A stretch of DNA of 64,000 nt, taken from contig JASEFA010000002.1 of the NCBI GenBank assembly GCA_030019365.1, forward strand, positions 245,525-309,524, written 5' to 3'. Positions 4,474 through 26,566 of the stretch are shown in pieces. The position numbers and the translations under genes are program-made. The DNA comes from Bacillota bacterium (GTDB lineage: Bacteria > Bacillota > Sulfobacillia > JACIYH01). How positions within the stretch are numbered: the stretch's first letter is position 1; each line of letters opens with the position of its first letter. Below the pieces are notes generated by a model. It made no database searches. It saw nothing but the letters and a program-made list of their open reading frames with translations, and was not told the origin of the DNA.

Positions 4474-6474
4474 GTGCCCACCAAGCATTATCCGAGTCTG
4501 TTTCAGCCAGGCAGGATCGGCAAGATAACGGTGCGGAACCGCCTGGTGATGCCGCCCATGGCGACCAACTATGGCGGCGAGGACGGCGAGGTCACCGACC
4601 GCATGATCCGTTACTACGAAGAGCGGGCCAAGGGTGGGACGGGCCTGATCATCGTGGAAAACGCCCAGGTGGATTACCCCATCGGGAAGAACGTGGTCCG
4701 CCAGCATCGCATCGATGACGACAAGTTCGTCCCCGGCCTGCGCCTTCTCGCCACCGCCATCAAACGTCATGGGGCGGTGGCCCTGCAGCAGATCCACCAT
4801 GCCGGGAGGCAAACCACCCCCGCCATCACCGAGGGCCACGTGCCGGTGGCGCCGTCGCCGGTGCCCTGCCGCTTCCTGGGGGTGCAGCCCCGCGAGCTGA
4901 CCGGCGCAGAGATCGACACCCTCATCAACAGGTTCGCGGAGGCGGCCGCCCGCGCCAAACTGGCCGGCTTCGACGGCGTGGAACTCCACGGCGCCCACGG
5001 CTACCTGATCGGGGAGTTCATCTCGCCGTACACCAACAAGCGCGTCGACCAGTACGGCGGGACGCTGGAGGGCCGGATGCGCTTCCCCCTGGAGATCATC
5101 CGGCGCACGCGCGAGAAGGTGGGGGACGACTTCGTCATCGGCTTCCGCTTCAGCGCCGACGAGTTCATCCCCGGGGGCCTCACCCTGGACGAGGCCAGAC
5201 AGGTGGCGCCCATGCTGCAGCAGGCCGGGGTGGACGTCCTGCACGTGTCGGCCGGTATCTACGAGAGCATGGACCGCGTCCTGGAACCCATGTCGTACCC
5301 GGAAGGATGGCGGGTCTACCTGGCCGAGTCCATCAAGCAGGTGGTGACCATCCCGGTGATAACGGTGGGCGTCATCCGCACGCCCGAGATGGCCGACCGC
5401 ATCATCGCCGAAGGCAAGGCCGACTTCGTGGCGGTGGGGCGCGGCCTCATCACCGACCCCGAGTTCGCCCTCAAGGCGGCCACCGGGCACGCCGACCGCA
5501 TCAACCGCTGCATCAGTTGCAACATCGGGTGCGTGGGCAACGGCATCTTCGCCTCCAGCATCATGCGCTGCACCGTCAATCCCGCCGTAGGGACGGAGGA
5601 GCTCCTGGGCACCATCCCGCCCGCCCCCCATCGCGTGAAGGTGGTGGTGGTGGGAGGCGGCCCCGCCGGCATGGAGGCGGCCCGCATCGCCGCGATGCGC
5701 GGCCACGACGTGGTGCTGTTCGAGAAGTCGGACCGCCCGGGGGGACAGATGCTGCTGGCCGCCCTTCCTCCCCACAAGGACAAGATCAACTGGTTCACGG
5801 ATTTTCTCACCCGGGAGCTGGCTTTGTTCCGGGTGCGCGTGGTCACCGGGCGCGGGGTTTCCGCTGAGGACGTCCTGCGGGAGCAGCCGGCCGCCGTGAT
5901 TGTCGCCACAGGGGCGGTGCCGGCGGTTCCCGACATCCCCGGTGTGGACGGGCCCCGCGTCTTCCAGGCCTGGGACGTGGTGGCCGGCACCAGGAAGGTG
6001 GACGGCCAGCGCGTGGTGGTAATGGGAGGCGGTCAGGTGGGATGCGAGACGGCGGAGCTCCTGGCCGAGCAGGGTAAGCAGGTCACCATCCTGGAGATGC
6101 TGCAGGACCTGGCCCTGGACATGGAGCCCATCAACCGCCTGGACATGCTGGGGCGGTTCAAGCGCCTGGGGATCAACGGACTCACCGGAGTGACGGCCAC
6201 CGCCATCACCGACGGCACCGTCCACACCATCGACCGCCACCTGCAGACCGCGTCCTTCCCCGCCGATGCCGTGCTCCTGGCCGTGGGAGCCACCCCGGTG
6301 AACGACCTGGCCCTGGACCTGGCCGGCCGCGTGGGCGAGGTGTACGTGGTGGGCGACGCCGTGCGGCCCCGACGCATCATGGAGGCCGCCCAGGAGGGAG
6401 CCCTGGCCGCCTACTCCATCGCCGAAGCCCACAAGTGGCTGAGCCCCCTCTCCCCGGCCCACGCTACCGTCTGA
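4474..6474 (+). CDS. NADH:flavin oxidoreductase, 2,4-dienoyl-CoA reductase type
   Basis: The 666-residue product has the full architecture of the 2,4-dienoyl-CoA reductase/BaiCD family. An N-terminal old-yellow-enzyme TIM barrel (residues 1-340) begins LFQPGRIGKITVRNRLVMPPM. A 4Fe-4S motif C-x2-C-x3-C-x11-C starts near 346 (CISCNIGC). A C-terminal FAD/NAD(P) module has two Rossmann loops, VVGGGPAGMEA near 390 and VMGGGQVGCETAE near 514. Such enzymes pass NAD(P)H electrons through FAD and the cluster to FMN and reduce enoates or enones. The start is GTG at 4474 behind GGGGAGGGAG. The substrate is not known. The four dyads and the sigma-54 activator lie just downstream. Confidence 0.85.
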   Translation: MPTKHYPSLFQPGRIGKITVRNRLVMPPMATNYGGEDGEVTDRMIRYYEERAKGGTGLIIVENAQVDYPIGKNVVRQHRIDDDKFVPGLRLLATAIKRHGAVALQQIHHAGRQTTPAITEGHVPVAPSPVPCRFLGVQPRELTGAEIDTLINRFAEAAARAKLAGFDGVELHGAHGYLIGEFISPYTNKRVDQYGGTLEGRMRFPLEIIRRTREKVGDDFVIGFRFSADEFIPGGLTLDEARQVAPMLQQAGVDVLHVSAGIYESMDRVLEPMSYPEGWRVYLAESIKQVVTIPVITVGVIRTPEMADRIIAEGKADFVAVGRGLITDPEFALKAATGHADRINRCISCNIGCVGNGIFASSIMRCTVNPAVGTEELLGTIPPAPHRVKVVVVGGGPAGMEAARIAAMRGHDVVLFEKSDRPGGQMLLAALPPHKDKINWFTDFLTRELALFRVRVVTGRGVSAEDVLREQPAAVIVATGAVPAVPDIPGVDGPRVFQAWDVVAGTRKVDGQRVVVMGGGQVGCETAELLAEQGKQVTILEMLQDLALDMEPINRLDMLGRFKRLGINGLTGVTATAITDGTVHTIDRHLQTASFPADAVLLAVGATPVNDLALDLAGRVGEVYVVGDAVRPRRIMEAAQEGALAAYSIAEAHKWLSPLSPAHATV

Positions 6475-6532
6475 CCCCGACGCGGCGCGCGGCAGCCCAC
6501 GCCCACGCCCCCCGACGCCCACAGGCAAACCA

Positions 6533-6775
6533 ACACGGTCAGCCGACTGACAGTGTGGCCTCTCACATGGTCAATCGGCTGACTGTGCACTCCGCCATCC
6601 GTCCCTCCGGTTCCCCGCGGGGCACCACCGCAATCTGCAGCGTTAACATAAAGATCGCACGCGCGATTTCCGTCAACCGCGTATTGCTGACTCTACCAAA
6701 TGTTACCACATAACCAGCGTCAGTGTCAGTGCCCTGACAGTCTTCCCGCCTACACGGTCAGTCCGCTGACCGTGC
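6533..6775. promoter_or_regulatory. Array of four phased dyad operators
   Basis: Four copies of the dyad GTCAR-N4-CTGAC lie in the 451-bp gap between the flavin reductase and the sigma-54 activator. Cores are at 6538-6551, 6570-6583, 6725-6738 and 6757-6770. Within each pair the centres are exactly 32 bp apart, about three helical turns, so both sites face the same side of DNA. Flanks of the first and last are also symmetric (ACAC...GTGT or GTGC). They look like binding sites of a dimeric regulator; the Fis-type activator encoded immediately downstream is the obvious candidate. The rest of 6475-6925 holds an AT-richer patch near 6640-6715 that may contain a promoter. Confidence 0.6.
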
Positions 6776-6925
6776 GTTCTCCGCCCCCCGCCGGGGTGGG
6801 CAGGATGGCTGGCACTCCAGAGCGAACTAACTACTGCAACGGGCCGGGAACCGCCGCGCGGGGGGCGGCCGGGACCGCAACGCACGTGCCTGCCGCGCTG
6901 GTAGGCGGGCGGGAATGCGGCGCAC

Positions 6926-8755
6926 ATGCCCGCCATGGGGGTGGGGGCCGGGTTGCCCGGGTCGGATCTATTATCGATTCAGGAGACAGCGCAGCAGGTG
7001 GCGGAGGCGGTATCTGCCGCCCTGGGCGTGGAAACCGAAATCGTGGACGACCGGATCACCGTGGTGGCCGGCACCGGTAAGTACCGCCAGCGCATCGGTG
7101 GTAACGAGGAAGGCGGCGACCCCACGGCCGGCTTCCTGTACGGTCGGGTGCTGCGCACGGGACAGTCCTTCGTGGTGGAGGATCCCGCTTCGGACCCCAC
7201 GTACGACCCCCGCTCCCTCACCGGGGAGACGGAAGAGCAGGCCGAGATTTGCTGTCCCATCGTGGTGGACGGCCGCGTGGTCGGGGTGCTGGGTCTTTCC
7301 GCCATGACCGCCGCCCAGCGGGAAATCCTGCTGGGCAAGCAGCGCGAGATGCTGGAATTCCTGCAACGCATGGCGGAGCTGCTTGCCAGCAAGGTCCGGG
7401 AACATCACGCCATGACCAGGCTGAGCATCACCTCGGGCCAGCTTGCCACCATCCTGGAGAGCATCGGCGAGGGCGTCCTGGCCATCGACGAGTCCGGCTT
7501 CATCTCCCACTGCAACCGCTCGGCCGAGGTGCTCATCGGGCTGCCGCGGCGGCAGCTGCTGGGCAAGCACCTCTCCACCCTGTGGCCGGATTCCCCCATG
7601 CTCACCGTGCTCGCCACCGGACAGGAGTACCGTGAGCGCGAGGAAATCTACCAGCGGCCCCGGCCCACCCACTTCCTGGTCACCGCCCTGCCCGTCCGCG
7701 TGGAGGGCGTCGTCAAGGGGGTGGTGGCCACCTTCCGGGCGTTCTCCGAGGTGAGGCGCCTGGTCCGCAGCATGACCGACACCCTCCCGGGATACACCTT
7801 CGCCGACATCAAGGGCACCAGCCCCGCCATCCTGCGCATGAAAGAACAGGCCATGCAGGTGGCGGCCAGCGATGTCACCGTCCTCATCTGCGGGGAAAGC
7901 GGCACCGGCAAGGAGATGTTCGCCCGCGCCGTCCATGCCGCCAGCCCGCGGGCGTCCGGCCCCTTCGTGGTGCTGAACTGCGGTGCCATCCCGGAAACCC
8001 TGCTGGAGAGCGAGCTGTTCGGGTACGAGGGGGGTGCATTCACCGGGGCGAAGCGCGAGGGCAAGCCGGGCAAGTTCGAGCTGGCCAGCGGTGGCACCAT
8101 CTTCCTGGACGAGATCGGCGATATGCCCCTGCACCTGCAGGTGAAGCTCCTGCGCGTGTTGCAGGATCACGTGGTGGAACGGGTGGGGGGCACCCACCCC
8201 ATCCCGGTGGACGTGCGGGTCATCGCTGCCAGCAACCGCGACCTGGAGCAGATGATGCACGACCACGAGTTCCGCGAGGACCTGTACTTCCGCCTGAGCG
8301 TCATCCCCCTCCAGGTACCGCCCCTGCGCGAGCGGCGCGAAGACATACCGCTCCTCGCCGAGTACTTCCTCGACAACCAGCGGCGGCTCGTGCCCAAGGA
8401 AGTGAGCGGATTCAGCCGCGCCGTCCTGGACGCCTTCCTGGCGTACGACTGGCCGGGGAACGTGCGGGAGTTGCAGAACACCGTCGAGTACGCCGTCCAC
8501 CTGGCCAAGGGGCCCACCATCACCCTGGAGAGCCTGCCACCGCGCCTGCGCCGGCACACGACGGCGGTGGCCGATGGCACCCTGCGCGAGCAGGTGCGCC
8601 GCTTTGAGGCCAGTCTGATCCAAACCTGCCTCTCCCGCTACGGATCGGGCAGCACGGCGGTGGAGCAGGCCGCCCGGGAGCTGGGGATCAGCCGGGCCAG
8701 CCTGTACCGGAAGCTGCGCGCCACCGCACGCGTCACCCGCCAGGCATCGGGATGA
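6926..8755 (+). CDS. Sigma-54-dependent transcriptional activator (sensor-PAS-AAA-Fis)
   Basis: The 609-residue enhancer-binding protein has four parts. The N-terminal sensor region (about 15-155) is GAF-like. A PAS domain starts near 175 (ILESIGEGVLAIDESGFISHCN). The AAA+ domain has Walker A GESGTGKE near 321, the sigma-54 contact loop GAFTGA near 369 and Walker B TIFLDEIG near 391. A C-terminal Fis-type helix-turn-helix ends GISRASLYRKLRA. It activates RNA polymerase-sigma54 promoters from upstream dyads. No receiver domain is present, so it probably senses a ligand directly. The start is uncertain: ATG 6926, ATG 6935 and TTG 6950 all lack a good ribosome site. Confidence 0.88.
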   Translation: MPAMGVGAGLPGSDLLSIQETAQQVAEAVSAALGVETEIVDDRITVVAGTGKYRQRIGGNEEGGDPTAGFLYGRVLRTGQSFVVEDPASDPTYDPRSLTGETEEQAEICCPIVVDGRVVGVLGLSAMTAAQREILLGKQREMLEFLQRMAELLASKVREHHAMTRLSITSGQLATILESIGEGVLAIDESGFISHCNRSAEVLIGLPRRQLLGKHLSTLWPDSPMLTVLATGQEYREREEIYQRPRPTHFLVTALPVRVEGVVKGVVATFRAFSEVRRLVRSMTDTLPGYTFADIKGTSPAILRMKEQAMQVAASDVTVLICGESGTGKEMFARAVHAASPRASGPFVVLNCGAIPETLLESELFGYEGGAFTGAKREGKPGKFELASGGTIFLDEIGDMPLHLQVKLLRVLQDHVVERVGGTHPIPVDVRVIAASNRDLEQMMHDHEFREDLYFRLSVIPLQVPPLRERREDIPLLAEYFLDNQRRLVPKEVSGFSRAVLDAFLAYDWPGNVRELQNTVEYAVHLAKGPTITLESLPPRLRRHTTAVADGTLREQVRRFEASLIQTCLSRYGSGSTAVEQAARELGISRASLYRKLRATARVTRQASG

Positions 8756-8756
8756 A

Positions 8757-9580
8757 GCACTCGGGTGCGGCGATGCGTTCGCCTCTCGAGCTTCCGCCCT
8801 GCTCCTGACCCTCATCCTGACGGTGGTCTTCCTGGTACTGTTTGCCCTGGGCGTGCGCGCGGCCGCCCGGCAGATCTCGCCCATAGAACGGGAGCTGACG
8901 GCCTCGGTCCTGGGGACCCAGCTCCTGGTGCTGGGCCTGTTCTTCGGGAACTTCATCGTGGCCTTCCTGGCCATATTCTCGGCTGTGGGCGTGGTCTCCA
9001 CGGAGCTGGAGAACGGAGTGCTGCAGACCATCGTGACCCGCCCGCTCTCCCGGGCCGCCGTGATCGGGGGTAAGTACGCCGGGCTGGGCGCCCTGCTCGC
9101 CCTGTACGCCGCCCTGTACTTCGGGGCCATCCTGGCGATCGTGCGGCACTACACGGGCACGAGCACTACCGGGGAGCCCGGCGCCCTCGCCCTCTTCTGC
9201 CTGACCCCGCTCGCCTTGCTGGCGGTGACCGTGCTGGGGAGCACATCCCTACCCACTGGGCCAACGGCATGGCGGTGCTCGGCCTCTACGTGGTGGCCTT
9301 CGTGGGGGGCATGGCGGAGCAGGTGGGTGCCCTCATCGACAACCTGACCATGCAGCGCCTGGGCATCGTGTCCAGCCTGATCCTCCCCTCCGACGCCCTC
9401 TACCGCAAGATCGTAGCCGTCCTCACCGGGTCGTCGGGGGACCCCTTCATGGCCGTGCGCCAGCTGGGCCCCCTGGGCAGCCTGTCCGAGCCCAGCGTGT
9501 GGATGATCGTGTACGCGCTGCTCTACACCGCCGCGATGGTGGCGCTGGCCATCCGCTGCTTCGCCCGCCGCGACATCTAG
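8757..9580 (+). pseudogene. Decayed ABC-2 type permease
   Basis: The region encodes an ABC-2 permease in two frames. Frame one runs through LLLTLILTVVFLVLFALG and a second and third membrane segment to VTVLGST. Near 9250-9265 the frame shifts, and WANGMAVLGLYVVAFVGGMAEQVG continues to the end at 9580. The normal N-terminus is absent: there is no in-frame ATG, GTG or TTG between the activator stop at 8755 and a GTG (8823) already inside the first membrane helix. No ABC ATPase gene lies beside it. A sequencing error could explain the frameshift but not the missing 5' end, so I call it a remnant. Confidence 0.7.
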
Positions 9581-9721
9581 TGCCGGGTCAGGGCGAAATC
9601 ACTCCGGGTACGATCGGAACTCCACCCCATCGATAGGAACCTCCCTGCGGGGGCCGCCACTCAGCGGAACAGCCTGCCCAGCAGGCGACCGGTTGCCCGC
9701 CCGGCGGCCGGCCGGCTGCCC

Positions 9722-10516
9722 CTACGTATGCGAAACCAGTTCGGCCATGATCGCCTCGCCGGAACTGGTGCCAAGCACATCGGCGCCGGCCCCAAGCAGG
9801 GCCAGGGCCTGGGCCAGCGTGCGGATGCCACCCGAGGCCTTCACGCCCAGCCGGTCACCCACCGCCCGGCGCATCAGATGCACGTCTTCCACCGTGGCAC
9901 CGCCCGGCCCGAATCCGGTGGAGGTCTTCACGAAGCGGGCCCCGGCCTCCTCCGCCAGGCGACAGGCCACCACCTTCTCCTCGTCCGTTAGGTAACAGGC
10001 TTCGATGATGACCTTGACCACGATCCCCTCGGCGGTGGCGCCTCCCGTGCCAAAGGCGCGGTGCCCAGCATCACCCGGCGGGGGGCTGGTGGCGTCGCCG
10101 GGCGCGCGGTGCGCGGCGCCAACGGGCGCGCGGTGCGCGGCGCCAACGGCGGCGCGGGCGGCGCCCCGCACCACGGCGCGGATCTCGTCGCGCACGTAGT
10201 CGAGCTGACCGGCCTTGAGGCGGCCGATGTTGATCACCATATCCACGTCGCTGGCCCCGGCGCGCACCGCTTCCTCCGCCTCGCGCGCCTTGGACGCCAG
10301 AGTGACGGTGCCGAGGGGGAATCCCGCCACCGTGCATACGCGCACCGGGCTTCCCTCCAGGTGCTCCACGGCCAGAGCCACATACGCCGGGCTCACGCAG
10401 ACGGCCCGGAAGCGGTGCCTCAGTGCCCCCGCGCAGAGGGCCTCCACCTGGGCCGGGGTGGCAGTGGGGGCAAGAAGGGTCTGGTCTATGCGGGCAGCCA
10501 GTTCAGCGGGCGTCAT
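9722..10516 (-). CDS. deoC: Deoxyribose-phosphate aldolase
   Basis: DeoC cleaves 2-deoxyribose-5-phosphate to acetaldehyde and glyceraldehyde-3-phosphate, the last step of deoxynucleoside breakdown. The Schiff-base lysine lies in FVKTSTGFG, the second active-site lysine in GVKASGGIR, and the aspartate in DVDMVINIG. The 264-residue product is longer than the usual ~220 because an Ala/Pro/Gly/His-rich insert of about 45 residues sits between DEIRAVVRGA and GIVVKVIIE. Part of the insert comes from a perfect 24-bp tandem repeat. The start at 10516 follows GGGAGG and overlaps the cytidine deaminase end by 14 bp, which suggests translational coupling. It is last in the nucleoside operon. Confidence 0.92.
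   Translation of the reverse strand: MTPAELAARIDQTLLAPTATPAQVEALCAGALRHRFRAVCVSPAYVALAVEHLEGSPVRVCTVAGFPLGTVTLASKAREAEEAVRAGASDVDMVINIGRLKAGQLDYVRDEIRAVVRGAARAAVGAAHRAPVGAAHRAPGDATSPPPGDAGHRAFGTGGATAEGIVVKVIIEACYLTDEEKVVACRLAEEAGARFVKTSTGFGPGGATVEDVHLMRRAVGDRLGVKASGGIRTLAQALALLGAGADVLGTSSGEAIMAELVSHT
10100..10147. repeat. 24-bp tandem duplication inside deoC
   Basis: Two identical 24-bp units (10100-10123 and 10124-10147) encode the repeated octapeptide VGAAHRAP. They sit in the non-conserved insert of the aldolase, so the reading frame is kept. Confidence 0.9.
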
Positions 10517-21159: not shown

Positions 21160-22314
21160 GTGCCCACCGTCACCGGGTTTGTTCACCGGCCGGGCGCTCA
21201 CTGCGGCTCCACAGCCCTGCGTGACCTGGCCGAGTCCTGCGCCGGCGTCGTCCTTTCGGAGGCCATGTGCTTCGGGCTGGGGGCGGGGCTGGGCTTCGCG
21301 TACCTGGCAGCCCCCGCTCTCTCACCCTCTCACGGATTCTGCGCGCGTGCCCCCTACCTGGAACCCCACTTCTTCCTGCACCTGGGCACCCCTTTCTCCT
21401 GGCGCAATGCTCCTCTGCCCTGGGAAGAGCTGTGCCAGTACATAGACGCAGGCACACCCATCCTGACCCTGACCGATCTCTACTACCTCGATTACTACAC
21501 CTCCAGCGTCCACTTCGGGGGACACGCCGTCATCGCAGCAGGATACCTGCCCGCAATCGACACGGGCACCAGCCCGGCGCCCGCCGGCTCGCCCGGCCGG
21601 GGCGCGGCGGGCAGCGTGCTGCTGGCGGATACTGCCTGGCCGGACCTGCAGGAAGTCCCGTACGCCCACTTCCGCCGGGCCATGCACTCCCTGGCCCCGC
21701 CCTTCCCCGTGGACGGCCAGTGGACTCCGGTGCCGCGGTCCACCATACCCGAAGGGGTGCTGCCGCGCGCGGTGCGGTCCGCCCTGGCCACCTGCGCCCG
21801 ATCTTACCTGCAGGCCCCTCCGCCCCCTGAGCTCGCACGTCTGGGCGTGCAGCATTACGGCATTTCCGGGCTGCGTGCCATGGCCGCCACCCTACCCTCC
21901 TGGGCGGACGCCCCCGACTTCGCGTGGTGCTGCCGCTACGCCTACCAGATGATTGAGAAACGGGGGACAGGCGGGAGCGCCTTCCGGCGGATGTATGCGG
22001 CCTTCCTGCGGGAAGCCCGCACCCTGGAGCCCGCAATACCCCTCAGGGCCATCACCGAACTGGAAATGGCCGCCGCCCTCTGGAGCGAGGCAGCGACCGT
22101 GTTCCGCGAGCTGGCCATCGGTAGCGACCCGGCAGGGGGCCAACCCGGCTTGCCCGCTGAAGGCTGCACCCCTGAAGGCCTGCCTCCCGACGAGCCGACC
22201 GCGGGACCACCGGCTCAGCCCGCGGTGGCCGCCGCCCTCCGGCGAGTTGCGGACATCCTGCTGGAGGTGGCCTCCCGCGAAGAAGAGGCCCTCACACTAG
22301 TCGCCCCCATCTGA
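21160..22314 (+). CDS. BtrH N-terminal domain protein
   Basis: The 384-residue protein carries the BtrH_N domain, named for the butirosin acyltransferase BtrH, which moves an acyl chain from a carrier protein to an aminoglycoside; the fold is papain-like. The hallmark reads GAHCGSTALRDLAE at residues 11-24 with the candidate catalytic Cys, then LSEAMCFGLGAGLGFAYL. A later His occurs in SVHFGGHAVIAAGY near 120. The C-terminal half matches the helical partner domain often found with it. Low-complexity Pro/Gly inserts occur near 140 and 330. The start is GTG 21160 behind AAAGGAGGGAGG. No antibiotic cluster surrounds it, so the substrate is unknown. Confidence 0.75.
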   Translation: MPTVTGFVHRPGAHCGSTALRDLAESCAGVVLSEAMCFGLGAGLGFAYLAAPALSPSHGFCARAPYLEPHFFLHLGTPFSWRNAPLPWEELCQYIDAGTPILTLTDLYYLDYYTSSVHFGGHAVIAAGYLPAIDTGTSPAPAGSPGRGAAGSVLLADTAWPDLQEVPYAHFRRAMHSLAPPFPVDGQWTPVPRSTIPEGVLPRAVRSALATCARSYLQAPPPPELARLGVQHYGISGLRAMAATLPSWADAPDFAWCCRYAYQMIEKRGTGGSAFRRMYAAFLREARTLEPAIPLRAITELEMAAALWSEAATVFRELAIGSDPAGGQPGLPAEGCTPEGLPPDEPTAGPPAQPAVAAALRRVADILLEVASREEEALTLVAPI

Positions 22315-22434
22315 TCACCCGCGCCACTGGCAGTCCTGCATCGGGGCAGGTAGTCCCCACTCTCCCGCGGGTGGGGAGGCGGAGGGCGCCCCTCGTGGGC
22401 GGCGTAGCTGGCGGCGCGGACCGCGCGGGCAGCG

Positions 22435-24105
22435 TCAGGTGGCGGCGCGACGGCCTCCGGCCAGCAGGCGGGCGATGCGCACCTTCTCGGGCAGGGGAGC
22501 GCCTTCCTCGTCCACGGCCCGGCAGGCACCCCCCACGATGCACGTGCGCACGGCGCCGCCGGCAGCCGGGTTCCCCCGCAGGTGAGGAGCGTCCAGCAGG
22601 CCAATGCGTACGGCCAGAGTGAGGGTGGCGGCATCGGCCCAGGGGTCGGCGGTACCGGGCGGGGCGATGTCCCGGATGGCGTCAAGCAGCAGCCGGGCTT
22701 CCTCGAGCAGCTCCTCCTTGCGCCCCTGCACCGCCGGGTCGCGGGTCATGTCGGGTAGCCCGTGGATGGCATTGCGGATGACGCCACGAGCTATCCCCAC
22801 CGCCTCGACGATGTCCTCCGGGGTGGCGGCATGGTGGGCCTCGCAGTGCGCCACCACGTGGACGATGTGGGGACGGAGGCTCATCTGCAGCATGGTGGAG
22901 GAGGCCAGCTGTCCCTTGGCCAGGTTCATGTCCACGGGGAGGCTGGCCAGCCCCGTCCGCGTCTGGCGGTAGACCGTGAAGTGCCGGTCCTGCAGGGACT
23001 CGATCAGTTCCACCTTGGCCAGCATCTTGCCCAGGTCCATGGGGAACGTGGTCCCGGGCGGGGTGTTGAACATGTACTGGGCCACGTAGTGGGTGACGCC
23101 GGCCTTCCTGGCGTTGTACGCGGCCAGGAAGGCAGCGGCCACCGCCACCTGATCGGGGGCGTCCCGCAGGCTCCAGTGATGGGCCTCGTTCACCTCCAGG
23201 GGGATACCCTCCCGGGCATGCCAGCGCATAGCCTGCTGAGCCTCCCGGATGGATTCCCCCAGCGACCGGCCGCTGCGGCCGTCCAGGACGTTGTACCACA
23301 GGAGGGGCACGGCACCCCAGGCCAGGTTGATGGTGCTCTTGAGCAGGCGGGCCATGGGGATGAGGTCTCGGGTGCCGCTGTACGAGCGTACCAGGGGATA
23401 GTTGCCACACCGCGAGGCCGCATAGATGGCGGCGAAATCCTCGGGCCGCCGCACCGGCACGCCGCCGGCGCCGTCCTGGCGGGGGTCCATCTCCTGAGGC
23501 CGGAAGAAGCTCTCCTGGGCGTTCTGGTCCGGCCCGATGGAGATCACGTCCAGCATCCGGGCCTCGGCCAGGCGCCGGGCACCCGCGATCGTGGCCTCTA
23601 GGGAGGGCAACCCGAAGTGGTGCCGGATGAGGGGGTAAGGGGCCTGCCGGACCACCCGTTCCGGCAGGGTCTGCGGGAACGATGCCTCCCCGTCCCGCCG
23701 CTCCACCCGGCCCGTACCCCGGAGGCCCTTGAGGTAGGCGATCACCGCCTCGTCCCCCTCCGACCCGTCGAAGGTCCGCTCGAAGAGCCCCGTCTCCCCG
23801 GCCACCTCTACCACGGGCGGAGTTCCGCCGAACACCATCCTCCCCGGCAGGAGTCCTTTGGACTCGAGCATCCCCTTGAGGTCGGCGAGCAGCCGTCCCG
23901 CGGCTTCAGCGGTCAACCGGTACGACAGCGCCACCAGGTCGGGCCGGTACCGGGCGATCGCTTCCACCACCTCCTCGGGGGAACGGGCCGAGCCCAGGAA
24001 GTGGCACCGGTACCCCTGGTCTTCGGCCAGCCCCAGGAACGCAAAGACGCCGGCCACATGCACGCAATCCCCCAGCGTGGCGGCAAGCACAGCCGGACGG
24101 TTCAT
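22435..24105 (-). CDS. Cobalamin-binding mutase-like protein (B12 domain + glutamate-mutase-type barrel)
   Basis: The 556-residue protein starts with a B12-binding Rossmann-like domain (1-115). The cofactor loop reads LGDCVHVAG, D13-x2-H16-x2-G19, one residue longer than the classic D-x-H-x2-G of base-off enzymes. Residues 200-480 resemble the catalytic barrel of methylaspartate (glutamate) mutase subunit E: LVRSYSGTRDLIPMARLL, LLWYNVLDGRSGRSLGESI, VEVNEAHHWSLRDAPD, VAQYMFNTPPGTTFPMDL. In glutamate mutase these parts are separate subunits with carbon-skeleton radical chemistry; here they are one chain. The ATG overlaps the upstream dehydrogenase stop by four bases. The substrate is unknown, and the riboswitch controls both genes. 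Confidence 0.75.
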   Translation of the reverse strand: MNRPAVLAATLGDCVHVAGVFAFLGLAEDQGYRCHFLGSARSPEEVVEAIARYRPDLVALSYRLTAEAAGRLLADLKGMLESKGLLPGRMVFGGTPPVVEVAGETGLFERTFDGSEGDEAVIAYLKGLRGTGRVERRDGEASFPQTLPERVVRQAPYPLIRHHFGLPSLEATIAGARRLAEARMLDVISIGPDQNAQESFFRPQEMDPRQDGAGGVPVRRPEDFAAIYAASRCGNYPLVRSYSGTRDLIPMARLLKSTINLAWGAVPLLWYNVLDGRSGRSLGESIREAQQAMRWHAREGIPLEVNEAHHWSLRDAPDQVAVAAAFLAAYNARKAGVTHYVAQYMFNTPPGTTFPMDLGKMLAKVELIESLQDRHFTVYRQTRTGLASLPVDMNLAKGQLASSTMLQMSLRPHIVHVVAHCEAHHAATPEDIVEAVGIARGVIRNAIHGLPDMTRDPAVQGRKEELLEEARLLLDAIRDIAPPGTADPWADAATLTLAVRIGLLDAPHLRGNPAAGGAVRTCIVGGACRAVDEEGAPLPEKVRIARLLAGGRRAAT

Positions 24106-25364
24106 GCCGCTTCCCTCCCTTCGCGGACGTAATTCAGCAGGTCCGCCACGCCCATGCCGTCCAGCCCCATGCGGGCCAGGGTGCGACCGTGATGGAAATA
24201 GTCCACGCCGTGCACCAGCGAGGCCAGGTGGACGAGGCTCCTCATGGTGGGCGTGGGCACACCCGCAAATTCACCGAGCGATACCAGGGGCACCAGGCCG
24301 GTGGGGACGTCTTCCCACACGTACCGGGTGTCCAGGCCATCGGGTGCCCTGATGCCCCGGTAGGCGCGGTTGTTCTGGAGCGCCCGATACAGGTCCGGGC
24401 CGTGGGCCCCGTAGGCCTGATGCAGCCACTCCCGCGCCGTGGGCAGGGCGATCCCCAGGGCGGCGGCCACGCCCAGCCGCTCGCCATCGAGGGCCTCCAG
24501 CACCCGCGCCACCGCCGGGGTAATGCCCTGGTGGTAGTGGTCGAAGGGATCGCCCGCCTCCACCCGGGCCAGGTTGAGCAGCACGGGTGCGGGATGGAAG
24601 ACGGCTCCTATGTTGTCCAGGCTGGTGTGGAGCACCGTTTCCGCGCCCACGAACTGGGGAAAAGCCTCCCGCAGCAATGCCAGCACCCGGGGCGTCTGCC
24701 AGGCGGGCAGGGCCGCCAGGGGCACCCGTTGCTTGATACTGAAGATGTGCACGTGCCCCGGCCCCGCCACGCGGGCGGCGTACAGCAGGGTCTGCGCCTC
24801 CGCCACCACGGGCAACTCGCGGCACCCACCGGCCCGCAGCGCGCATTCCATCTCCAGGGCACCCAACGTGCGGCCGGGGTTCAGCACCAGCACCTGGTCT
24901 TCCCGCACGTGGGGCGCCAGGCCGCGCCCCAGGTCGGCGTGGCCGGTGGCGGGCACTGTCAGCATGAGCACCCGCGCCCGGGCTGCCTCGGCCGGCGACC
25001 CCGTCAGCCATACCGTCCCGGTTCCTGGCCGGCCCCCGGCGGCACTCATCCCTGCACCCTTCATGCGGCTGCTCCACACGCGCCCCGGCTCGCTGCCCGG
25101 CGCGACCCCCAACCGGCTGCCCCGGCCGCCGTCGGGCCGTGCGCAGGGCCTCACCGGTATGCGGCCATCCACGGCGCCAGACACAGTGAGCACCCCGCGC
25201 TCGAGCAGCTCCCGCACACGGTCGGGGCTCCGGTTGTACAGGACGACGTCCCACCCCTGGCTGGCCAGGTGGGCTGCCATGGCCTGGCCCCCGTTGCCCG
25301 CTCCCAGGACGGCGAAGGGCACCCACCCGGGGTATCCTCGCGCGGCAAGAACTTCTGTGGGCAA
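24102..25364 (-). CDS. Opine/octopine dehydrogenase family NAD(P) oxidoreductase
   Basis: The 420-residue product has the NAD/NADP octopine/nopaline dehydrogenase architecture. An N-terminal Rossmann domain has GAGNGG at residues 21-26, and the C-terminal helical domain has the family's DNIGAVFHPAPVLLNLARVE, including the conserved His. Family members reductively join an amino acid to a 2-oxoacid, or the reverse. A Gly/Arg/Pro-rich insert (about 66-110) interrupts the Rossmann fold. The start is TTG 25364, eight bases after GAGGAGG; the open frame to 25466 crosses the terminator hairpin and is not translated in this model. It is the first gene after the c-di-AMP riboswitch and is coupled to the B12 protein. 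Confidence 0.8.
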   Translation of the reverse strand: MPTEVLAARGYPGWVPFAVLGAGNGGQAMAAHLASQGWDVVLYNRSPDRVRELLERGVLTVSGAVDGRIPVRPCARPDGGRGSRLGVAPGSEPGRVWSSRMKGAGMSAAGGRPGTGTVWLTGSPAEAARARVLMLTVPATGHADLGRGLAPHVREDQVLVLNPGRTLGALEMECALRAGGCRELPVVAEAQTLLYAARVAGPGHVHIFSIKQRVPLAALPAWQTPRVLALLREAFPQFVGAETVLHTSLDNIGAVFHPAPVLLNLARVEAGDPFDHYHQGITPAVARVLEALDGERLGVAAALGIALPTAREWLHQAYGAHGPDLYRALQNNRAYRGIRAPDGLDTRYVWEDVPTGLVPLVSLGEFAGVPTPTMRSLVHLASLVHGVDYFHHGRTLARMGLDGMGVADLLNYVREGREAA

Positions 25365-25407
25365 ACGAAACACCTCCTCGGCCTGGTGGCACCGGCTCTG
25401 GAGGTGG

Positions 25408-25441
25408 AAAAACCCGACCCGGAGGTACATCCTGGGTCGGG
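25408..25441 (-). terminator. Intrinsic terminator/attenuator in the opine dehydrogenase leader
   Basis: On the minus strand CCCGACCC and GGGTCGGG form an 8-bp perfect stem (25434-25441 with 25413-25420), with an inner AGG/CCT extension, followed directly by TTTTT. It lies between the riboswitch and the TTG start, about 45 nt before it. This is the expected place for a riboswitch-controlled terminator. Confidence 0.8.
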
Positions 25442-25517
25442 CATCAGGCTCGCCTCGCTTAGTCACGCCCCTCGCAGAGAAGCGTTCCCGTCGGGCGGCA
25501 CGGTTGCCCGGCCCAAC

Positions 25518-25722
25518 CCACCTCCTCTTTCCACGCTTACGAGGTTAGCTGCCGGGCTCGGATCGAAAGAGTGTGACCCGTCTCGCCTTCACCCGCACCG
25601 GTCGGACCGGTGCCGGGCCCGGACGAGATTCGCCCCGTTGGTCTGGTTCCCCCGTTTCCCCTGGCGGGGAATTCAGCGATCAAGCGGATTGGCCGTGAGC
25701 CAACCAAGCATTATTCGGTTCT
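25518..25722 (-). promoter_or_regulatory. Cyclic-di-AMP riboswitch (ydaO/yuaA class)
   Basis: Read on the minus strand, this leader has the conserved blocks of the ydaO-yuaA aptamer in order: AACCGAAT (25713-25720), AATCCGC then GCTGAATT, CGGGGGAACCAG (25643-25654), GGGGCGAATC (25627-25636), a variable hairpin GCACCGG/CCGGTGC, and CGAGCCCGGCAGCTAACCTC followed by GTAAGCG (25534-25560). This RNA binds c-di-AMP, usually switching genes off. A TTGACA (25752-25757) upstream may be a -35, but no convincing -10 is placed. The terminator at 25408-25441 completes the switch. Known targets are mostly wall hydrolases and K+ or osmolyte transport; here it precedes the opine-dehydrogenase/B12 operon. Confidence 0.88.
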
Positions 25723-25804
25723 ACCACAGGCTAACATATCACCCAATCCCCTGTCAACCGCCCGCCCCATGTCCAAGTCCCCTCCTTTTGGATGGGGCTA
25801 GCCG

Positions 25805-26566
25805 CTACAGATCCCGGCAGCCCACCGCCACAGTGCTGGCCCAGAACAGCACCAGGGCGGCCCCCAGGAGCACTAGCAGGGAGGCCCAGGGAAAACCCGG
25901 CCCCGCCATGATGGCAAACGCCTTCATGTGCCAAAAGAACGAGAGAAAGAAGGTCGAACGGAACCACCCCGGCACCGCCAGTGCCAGGCACACGACCCCG
26001 GCACCCACCCCCGCACGCACCCCGTCGTGCGCAAACACCGAGGCAAGCACTGCCACACCCAGCACCACCAGAGAACCGGCCCAGGCCAGGGGCATCCCCA
26101 GGAGAAAGCCCTCGGGTGCGCTCTCACCGCCCAGCCAGGGGGAGGCCGCCCACACCCCCAGGGTAGGGATCACCGTGCATAGGGCAAGCACCACCGCGCC
26201 CGCCATCACCTTGGCGGCCACCGCCTGCCGCCGGCTGACCGGCAGAGTGAGCAGAAACGGCAGCGTCCCCCGAGCCCGCTCGCCGGCCAGAGCGCCCGCC
26301 CCCAGCACCAGGGCGATCACGGTCAGGTTCTGGTACAGGTTCTTGCCGTACCAGTTGGCCCACAGGTACACCCGGAAGTCCGCCAGCTGCCGCAGGATTT
26401 CTCCCGAGAGGCCGGGCAGCATGGCCCCCGCGCCTGCGATCCTGCTGAGGAACCGGTAGAAGTAAGGGAGGGAGAGGCCGACCAGGAGGGTCAGCCCCAG
26501 CCCCACCCAGAGCACCCACCTGACCTGCCTCAGTTCCTTCTCCACCAGGACACCGAGCCTGCCCAT
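25805..26566 (-). CDS. ABC-2 type transporter permease
   Basis: The 253-residue protein has six hydrophobic segments in the ABC-2 layout. It begins MGRLGVLVEKELRQVRW and has an N-terminal amphipathic region, then ALAGERARGTLPFLLTLPVSRRQAVAAKV, the typical cytosolic loop before helix 3. The ATG at 26566 follows GGAGG by eight bases. The gene starts 17 bp after the ATPase stop. It probably works with that ATPase as an exporter controlled by the upstream GntR regulator. Substrate unknown. Confidence 0.85.
   Translation of the reverse strand: MGRLGVLVEKELRQVRWVLWVGLGLTLLVGLSLPYFYRFLSRIAGAGAMLPGLSGEILRQLADFRVYLWANWYGKNLYQNLTVIALVLGAGALAGERARGTLPFLLTLPVSRRQAVAAKVMAGAVVLALCTVIPTLGVWAASPWLGGESAPEGFLLGMPLAWAGSLVVLGVAVLASVFAHDGVRAGVGAGVVCLALAVPGWFRSTFFLSFFWHMKAFAIMAGPGFPWASLLVLLGAALVLFWASTVAVGCRDL

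Follow-up and report, generated by a model that had tools for sequence, protein, structure and literature searches.

Why should a riboswitch for cyclic di-AMP (c-di-AMP), a second messenger known chiefly for K+ and osmolyte transport and for wall upkeep, stand in front of an opine dehydrogenase and a B12-dependent mutase-like protein? The question is raised by a stretch of 64,000 nucleotides from a Bacillota bacterium (Sulfobacillia; assembly GCA_030019365.1, contig JASEFA010000002.1, positions 245,525 to 309,524 of the forward strand), referred to here as the window. The strongest argument for a joint pathway is that opine dehydrogenase and this mutase fold are found coupled again and again in many genomes, and this lasting pairing together with the switch suggests an unrecognised osmotic-stress metabolite pathway. 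The reading preferred here, with a probability of roughly 0.5, has a c-di-AMP OFF switch control the biosynthesis of an osmolyte from an acidic amino acid. An earlier note on the same DNA had proposed such an operon for the span 24102-25722, which does hold the switch and the dehydrogenase gene but omits the B12 gene at 24105-22435. The elements of the locus are:

25752-25757, minus strand: TTGACA, a weak candidate for a -35 element 5' of the aptamer (from the sequence)
25520-25688, minus strand: c-di-AMP (ydaO) riboswitch aptamer whose variable arm is long and GC-rich (RF00379; homologous leaders at 30 related loci)
25511-25519, minus strand: putative antiterminator, GGGTTGGGC, able to pair with the terminator's left arm
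25408-25442, minus strand: intrinsic terminator (hairpin 25442-25412, T-run 25412-25408; from folding)
25373-25378, minus strand: AGGAGG, ribosome-binding site of the dehydrogenase gene (from the sequence)
24102-25364, minus strand: opine dehydrogenase family gene, CENDH-like, 420 aa, TTG start (PF02317, 1bg6)
25008-25145, minus strand: 46-residue insert, aa 74-119 of the dehydrogenase (alignment of 77 sequences)
22435-24105, minus strand: B12-dependent mutase-like gene, 556 aa, ATG at 24105 (PF02310, 80 relatives, AlphaFold2 model)
23716-24105, minus strand: N-terminal B12-binding domain, aa 1-130, with a (D/N)CVHxxG motif (PF02310; 4jgi, Z 16.5; alignment)
22459-23691, minus strand: TIM barrel of the glutamate mutase epsilon fold, about aa 139-549 (structure match to 1cb7_B)

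A leader and two overlapping genes

The ydaO-type aptamer of the earlier note is borne out by an Rfam covariance search, in which RF00379 matched over its full length (1-134) at 25688-25520 of the minus strand with 81.9 bits against a gathering score of 38 (E 1.7e-17), as the sole Rfam match in the window. The intrinsic terminator was recovered by folding as CCCGACCC...GGGTCGGG followed by TTTTT (25442-25408, -21.9 kcal/mol). A consensus scanner run over 22300-25900 reported neither promoter nor terminator, and it probably overlooked the latter because of a loop or bulge in the hairpin. Directly 3' of the aptamer, GGGTTGGGC (25519-25511) can pair with the left arm of the terminator at 9/9 positions, including one G-T (duplex -17.4 kcal/mol). 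A terminator with a mutually exclusive pairing, as in the expression platform of RF00379 switches, is thereby predicted, and most related leaders likewise carry a hairpin and a T-run 3' of the aptamer, with differing sequences. In published c-di-AMP OFF switches, the bound ligand favours termination (PMC9337991, PMC6488665). The leader architecture fits this logic, and by analogy the polarity here would be the same. Since the host genome encodes diadenylate cyclases as well as the corrinoid adenosyltransferase CobA, both ligand and cofactor can be made.

As to the promoter, the TTGACA at 25752-25757 has no good -10 at normal spacing and did not pass the consensus scan. The earlier note had named a start between the terminator and the TTG at 25364 as one that would bypass the leader; no sigma70-type promoter was found there by the same scan, which is a weak one.

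The dehydrogenase belongs to its claimed family with 162.6 bits against PF02317 (cut-off 30). Its nearest PDB sequence is N-(1-D-carboxyethyl)-L-norvaline dehydrogenase (CENDH, 1bg6; E 1.6e-77), with octopine dehydrogenase far behind (2e-10). In an alignment of 77 sequences, G21, G23 and G26 of the Rossmann GxGxxG motif are at least 95% conserved, as are the catalytic-type H257 and D352, which lie opposite H202 and D297 of 1bg6 that we take to be its catalytic His and Asp. Domain, GxGxxG motif and His/Asp support a CENDH-type enzyme, for which the formation of N-carboxyalkyl amino acids is predicted. The insert at aa 74-119 occurs otherwise only in a sister genome (L003) among the 77 sequences. 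The 2.9-Mb host genome (G000) contains five PF02317 opine-dehydrogenase-family matches.

The start of the B12 gene overlaps the stop of the dehydrogenase gene by 4 nt, as ATGA. The mutase-like character claimed for its product stands on two legs, the B12-binding domain (PF02310, 43.8 bits) and the predicted fold of the remainder. In the former, H16 and G19 are invariant in 65 sequences, and the HxxG core of the DxHxxG motif is present, preceded by (D/N)CV rather than Dx. This core supports an adenosylcobalamin (AdoCbl)-dependent protein of the base-off/His-on type, in which AdoCbl binding and isomerisation are predicted functions. Sequence-family libraries matched nothing beyond the B12-binding domain, and searches of PDB sequences with the protein or its profile returned essentially B12-binding domains alone; the barrel emerged from structure prediction. 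An AlphaFold2 model built from the 65 sequences (pLDDT 91.4) has the epsilon subunit of glutamate mutase (1cb7_B) as its top structural match for the barrel, with Z 35.8 over 379 residues at an rmsd of 3.2 Å and 16% identity. Further fold matches are lysine 5,6-aminomutase (Z 32), ornithine 4,5-aminomutase (Z 30) and methylmalonyl-CoA mutase (Z 24). The radical carbon-skeleton rearrangement foreseen in the earlier note is therefore backed by the fold, shared with glutamate mutase, the aminomutases and methylmalonyl-CoA mutase, and by GlmL, which occurs beside or fused to the mutase in relatives, and not by chemistry.

The profile PF06368 matches neither the window protein nor any other protein of its genome, and a few relatives match it weakly, around the cut-off. 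A profile alignment of the mutase with GlmE (hhalign, probability 37, E 3.6e-4) is too weak for firm residue mapping. Glutamate mutase holds glutamate with an arginine claw, R66/R100/R149 (PMC10947579). The low-probability alignment pairs R149 with Y242 and brings R66 close to H163; each of these two residues of the window protein has a conserved arginine two positions earlier. Judged from the model, the protein appears to behave as a mutase of the glutamate mutase class; it should not be named glutamate mutase, because a PF06368 match is missing and the claw positions are not confidently placed. Convergent with the B12 gene lies a gene for a BtrH_N/DUF4872 protein (21160-22314, plus strand), with an EamA transporter gene just before it.

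The pair and its switch across genomes

A search of 84,980 species genomes provided the best 80 mutase relatives (50-93% identity), and in 79 of these 80 loci the mutase gene is adjoined by the dehydrogenase gene. The pair ranges over Bacillota, Armatimonadota, Planctomycetota, Chloroflexota and one Thorarchaeote (L080); within the phylum of the host, a profile scan found relatives in 60 of 299 genomes. For the order riboswitch-dehydrogenase-B12, which the earlier note had put up for genome comparison, a covariance model built from 16 leaders was used to scan the 80 loci. Thirty of them have a co-oriented c-di-AMP switch upstream (L046 is cut by the contig end). The first gene after the switch encodes the dehydrogenase in 21 cases, an ATP-grasp protein preceding the dehydrogenase in eight and an asparagine synthase in one. 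Fifty genomes searched whole gave 69 switches in 33 genomes, and the pair carries one in 25 of these 33 (25/50 of all searched whole), against about 0.02 expected by chance if kinship is left uncorrected. Mapped on the mutase tree, presence of the switch takes about 10 changes, against 24 when the labels are shuffled; the switch is thus clustered, yet was repeatedly gained or lost. Where the mutase has no adjacent dehydrogenase gene (genome of L016), a c-di-AMP switch precedes a separate dehydrogenase (L129) that is 46% identical to the one in the window.

Two loci have other leaders. In a member of the Phycisphaerales, an nhaA-I RNA (L066:4254-4307) lies 5' of a small membrane-protein gene that is followed by the pair, with an asparagine-synthase-like gene overlapping the end of the mutase gene; this RNA class is reported to sense Li+ (PMC9646797). 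A fluoride riboswitch (L041:4676-4737) stands directly before a dehydrogenase gene, with a TTGACA-N17-TATAAT-like promoter 5' of it. A dedicated Na+ riboswitch was not seen among the loci scanned with Rfam, which are part of all loci.

The one other c-di-AMP switch of the host genome precedes a D-Ala-D-Ala-ligase-like ATP-grasp gene and then a family-5 solute-binding protein gene. Of the 80 loci, 15 have a homologue of this ATP-grasp gene beside the pair, which it directly precedes on the same strand in 10 of them. Thermoanaerobacter, Caldanaerobacter and others have an asparagine-synthase-like gene next to the pair in its stead. These recurring partners point to amide-bond formation as a recurring later or parallel step. 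Three of the seven AsnB-like partners (L017, L066, L072) lack the N-terminal glutaminase Cys2, which raises a lactam-forming or ammonia-using role. Moreover, genes for MscS channels are next to the pair in Armatimonadota, and in 12/80 loci the pair is followed by a V-ATPase operon. Elsewhere in the sampled genomes, the genes after c-di-AMP switches encode TrkH, a family-20 glycosyltransferase, Opp-type transporters and wall proteins. The family-20 glycosyltransferase (trehalose-6-phosphate synthase family) belongs to the sister genome (L098, genome of L003), where c-di-AMP apparently controls sugar-type solute synthesis directly. In Formimonas warabiya (L125), a c-di-AMP riboswitch is followed by a group-1 glycosyltransferase, sucrose-phosphate-synthase-like by eye, and a phosphatase-like open reading frame. 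Other neighbours of the pair were set aside: aconitase (three loci) and one isocitrate-dehydrogenase-family gene upstream hint at 2-oxoglutarate supply and are too few to use, and DapF (near the pair in five loci, one of them checked) as well as GCV_T, MtrH and LNT-type acyltransferase genes are likely incidental.

The coupling extends to divergent mutases. The host genome carries a second pair (L146, C5:134000-150000, at 4785-10018 therein), in which the dehydrogenase gene is followed by one for a 1270-aa protein that fuses B12 domain, barrel and MutL/GlmL. On either side of this second pair lie Amidohydro_3 genes of the N-acyl-D-amino-acid deacylase type. The same fusion in G080 adjoins Opp-type ATPases, G111 has a similar long frame, and G007 (L149) holds a third type of pair. 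In all, three divergent mutase subfamilies each have a dehydrogenase partner of the opine dehydrogenase (ODH) family. Common to all mutase types are H16, G19, R161, H163, R240, Y242, D275, R277, E304, N306, H309, K360, R383, E422 and H425. Next to pairs of the main type stand GlmL, which serves methylaspartate mutase as accessory protein, in L082 (496 bits, cut-off 475) and a MutL-family gene in L052.

A proposed osmolyte route and its rivals

On the basis of these sequences, folds, linkages and regulons, a scheme can be proposed whose ligand response, reactions, reaction order and product we infer. At high c-di-AMP, i.e. in K+-replete cells without osmotic stress, the bound aptamer would keep 25519-25511 from the left arm of the terminator, so that the terminator can fold and end transcription. 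A fall in c-di-AMP would permit read-through, and with it the production of dehydrogenase and mutase in coupled amounts. The mutase may act as an AdoCbl-dependent carbon-skeleton (or amino-group) mutase, with an acidic amino acid or a derivative thereof that carries several carboxylates as the substrate to be isomerised, and the CENDH-like dehydrogenase could use NAD(P)H to join an amino acid and a 2-oxoacid through reductive amination. The product might be amidated or ligated by an enzyme of the ATP-grasp or asparagine-synthase-like kind; in the present genome, such an ATP-grasp-type enzyme would be supplied from elsewhere, under the second c-di-AMP switch and together with a binding protein of a peptide-type ABC transporter. 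The end product would most likely be a compatible solute. The osmolyte link of the earlier note is thereby supported indirectly, through the regulon, the neighbours and the other ion-sensing leaders.

Several points weigh against this route. A switch was not detected in 50 of the 80 loci, in some merely owing to a contig end, and the Li+ (nhaA-I) and fluoride leaders are single cases. Substrate and product are proposals only, and ligand binding as well as OFF polarity are read from sequence. The arginine claw of glutamate mutase is not clearly preserved, so that the substrate may not be glutamate. Finally, ATP-grasp genes of the D-Ala-D-Ala ligase family and switch targets among wall proteins would suit a role in the wall, too.

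Such a role, in which the D-Ala-D-Ala-ligase-like enzyme would take a rearranged, N-substituted amino acid and ligate it as a building block or modifier of a c-di-AMP-regulated peptidoglycan, is unlikely, though it fares best among the alternatives. It draws on the ATP-grasp partner, whose nearest relatives are D-Ala-D-Ala ligases, on a Mur-ligase-like gene (L065) and an N-acetylmuramoyl-L-alanine amidase gene (L042) downstream of the pair, and on several c-di-AMP switches that by inspection precede SH3/LysM-type wall proteins. Yet the pair also occurs in the Thorarchaeote, where peptidoglycan is not expected, the partner in Thermoanaerobacter is asparagine-synthase-like instead, and MscS, V-ATPase and the ion-sensing leaders indicate ions or osmolarity.

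A redox or catabolic module ranks next and is rather improbable. Here, the dehydrogenase would regenerate NAD+ via opines or oxidise imported ones, with the mutase feeding or draining amino-acid fermentation as glutamate mutase does. The glutamate mutase fold, the association with GlmL and the many hosts that by their names are anaerobic fermenters agree with this, and the deacylase-type amidohydrolases around the second pair of the host and the Opp-type ATPases beside the fusion in G080 make opine-related catabolism plausible at those paralogous pairs. However, c-di-AMP control, MscS neighbours and amide-forming enzymes better suit an osmotically controlled biosynthesis, and neither methylaspartase nor another fermentation gene was found among the neighbours examined.

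Alternatively, the order of the two enzymes could be reversed, with the dehydrogenase making an N-carboxyalkyl amino acid whose skeleton is then rearranged by the B12 enzyme. The pairing of each of the three mutase subfamilies with an ODH-family dehydrogenase would follow from this, and the conserved R161, R240, R277 and R383 could accommodate several carboxylates on the substrate. A mutase that supplies the amino acid to the dehydrogenase explains the pairing equally well, however, and we know of no AdoCbl mutase that uses opines. The reversed order is quite doubtful. A decayed or incidental aptamer with genes driven from an internal promoter has very little in its favour: the upstream TTGACA lacks a good -10 and the promoter is putative, but the 81.9 bits, the intact terminator and antiterminator and the homologous leaders in the corresponding position of many genomes argue strongly against it.

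Meaning and relation to known systems

With the osmolyte route preferred, the conserved two-enzyme core under a c-di-AMP switch would link a second messenger to a new metabolite in a way that can be tested directly. The core also marks out a family of uncharacterised B12 mutases, for which the obvious partner enzyme makes the substrate search tractable, and cultured hosts of the pair are available in Thermoanaerobacter wiegelii, Caldanaerobacter and Tissierella. RNA class, dehydrogenase family and mutase fold are each already known. What appears to be new is the conserved core of dehydrogenase and AdoCbl-type mutase, together with the ATP-grasp or asparagine-synthase partners of this core and its membership of the c-di-AMP regulon. 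A text search of the accessible literature found no paper joining these elements, and an earlier tabulation in gene lists of c-di-AMP riboswitches is possible. More tentatively, a new class of compatible solutes may arise here from a new AdoCbl mutase family and opine dehydrogenases, possibly the first B12 radical enzymes in opine-type chemistry, under c-di-AMP and occasionally other ion-sensing riboswitches.

Among the single proteins, CENDH is the closest solved relative of the dehydrogenase, similar over most of its length and with the His/Asp kept; the copy in the window differs by its 46-aa insert and its B12 mutase partner. The glutamate (methylaspartate) mutase system GlmE/GlmS/GlmL shares with the second protein the TIM-barrel fold, a B12 domain with invariant His and Gly and, in relatives, a GlmL that is adjacent or fused. 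In contrast to glutamate mutase, the B12 domain is fused N-terminally here, identity is 16%, a PF06368 match is absent, the claw positions are unclear and an opine dehydrogenase is linked. D-Ornithine 4,5- and lysine 5,6-aminomutases resemble it in barrel superfamily (Z 29-32) and AdoCbl chemistry, but they depend on pyridoxal phosphate (PLP) and have another domain order; a PLP element was not identified in the window mutase, and the likeness implies no such substrate.

As to regulation, the claim that c-di-AMP control of such chemistry is entirely new has to be moderated, as we know of one published precedent. In Dehalobacter sp. CF, a tandem Na+/c-di-AMP riboswitch controls lysine 2,3-aminomutase (ablA) and with it the osmolyte precursor β-lysine (PMC9337991). 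Common to both is a c-di-AMP OFF switch over a mutase for an osmolyte precursor, as proposed for the window; the proteins differ, with an AdoCbl-type mutase fold and an opine dehydrogenase here, and no Na+ switch was found in the window. A c-di-AMP OFF switch is also known for kdp (PMC6488665), and the riboswitches of kdpFABC, kimA and ktrAB (PMC6488665, PMC5575661) share the aptamer family and the terminator-based OFF architecture. Those switches govern K+ transporters, whereas the switch in the window stands before a metabolic operon.

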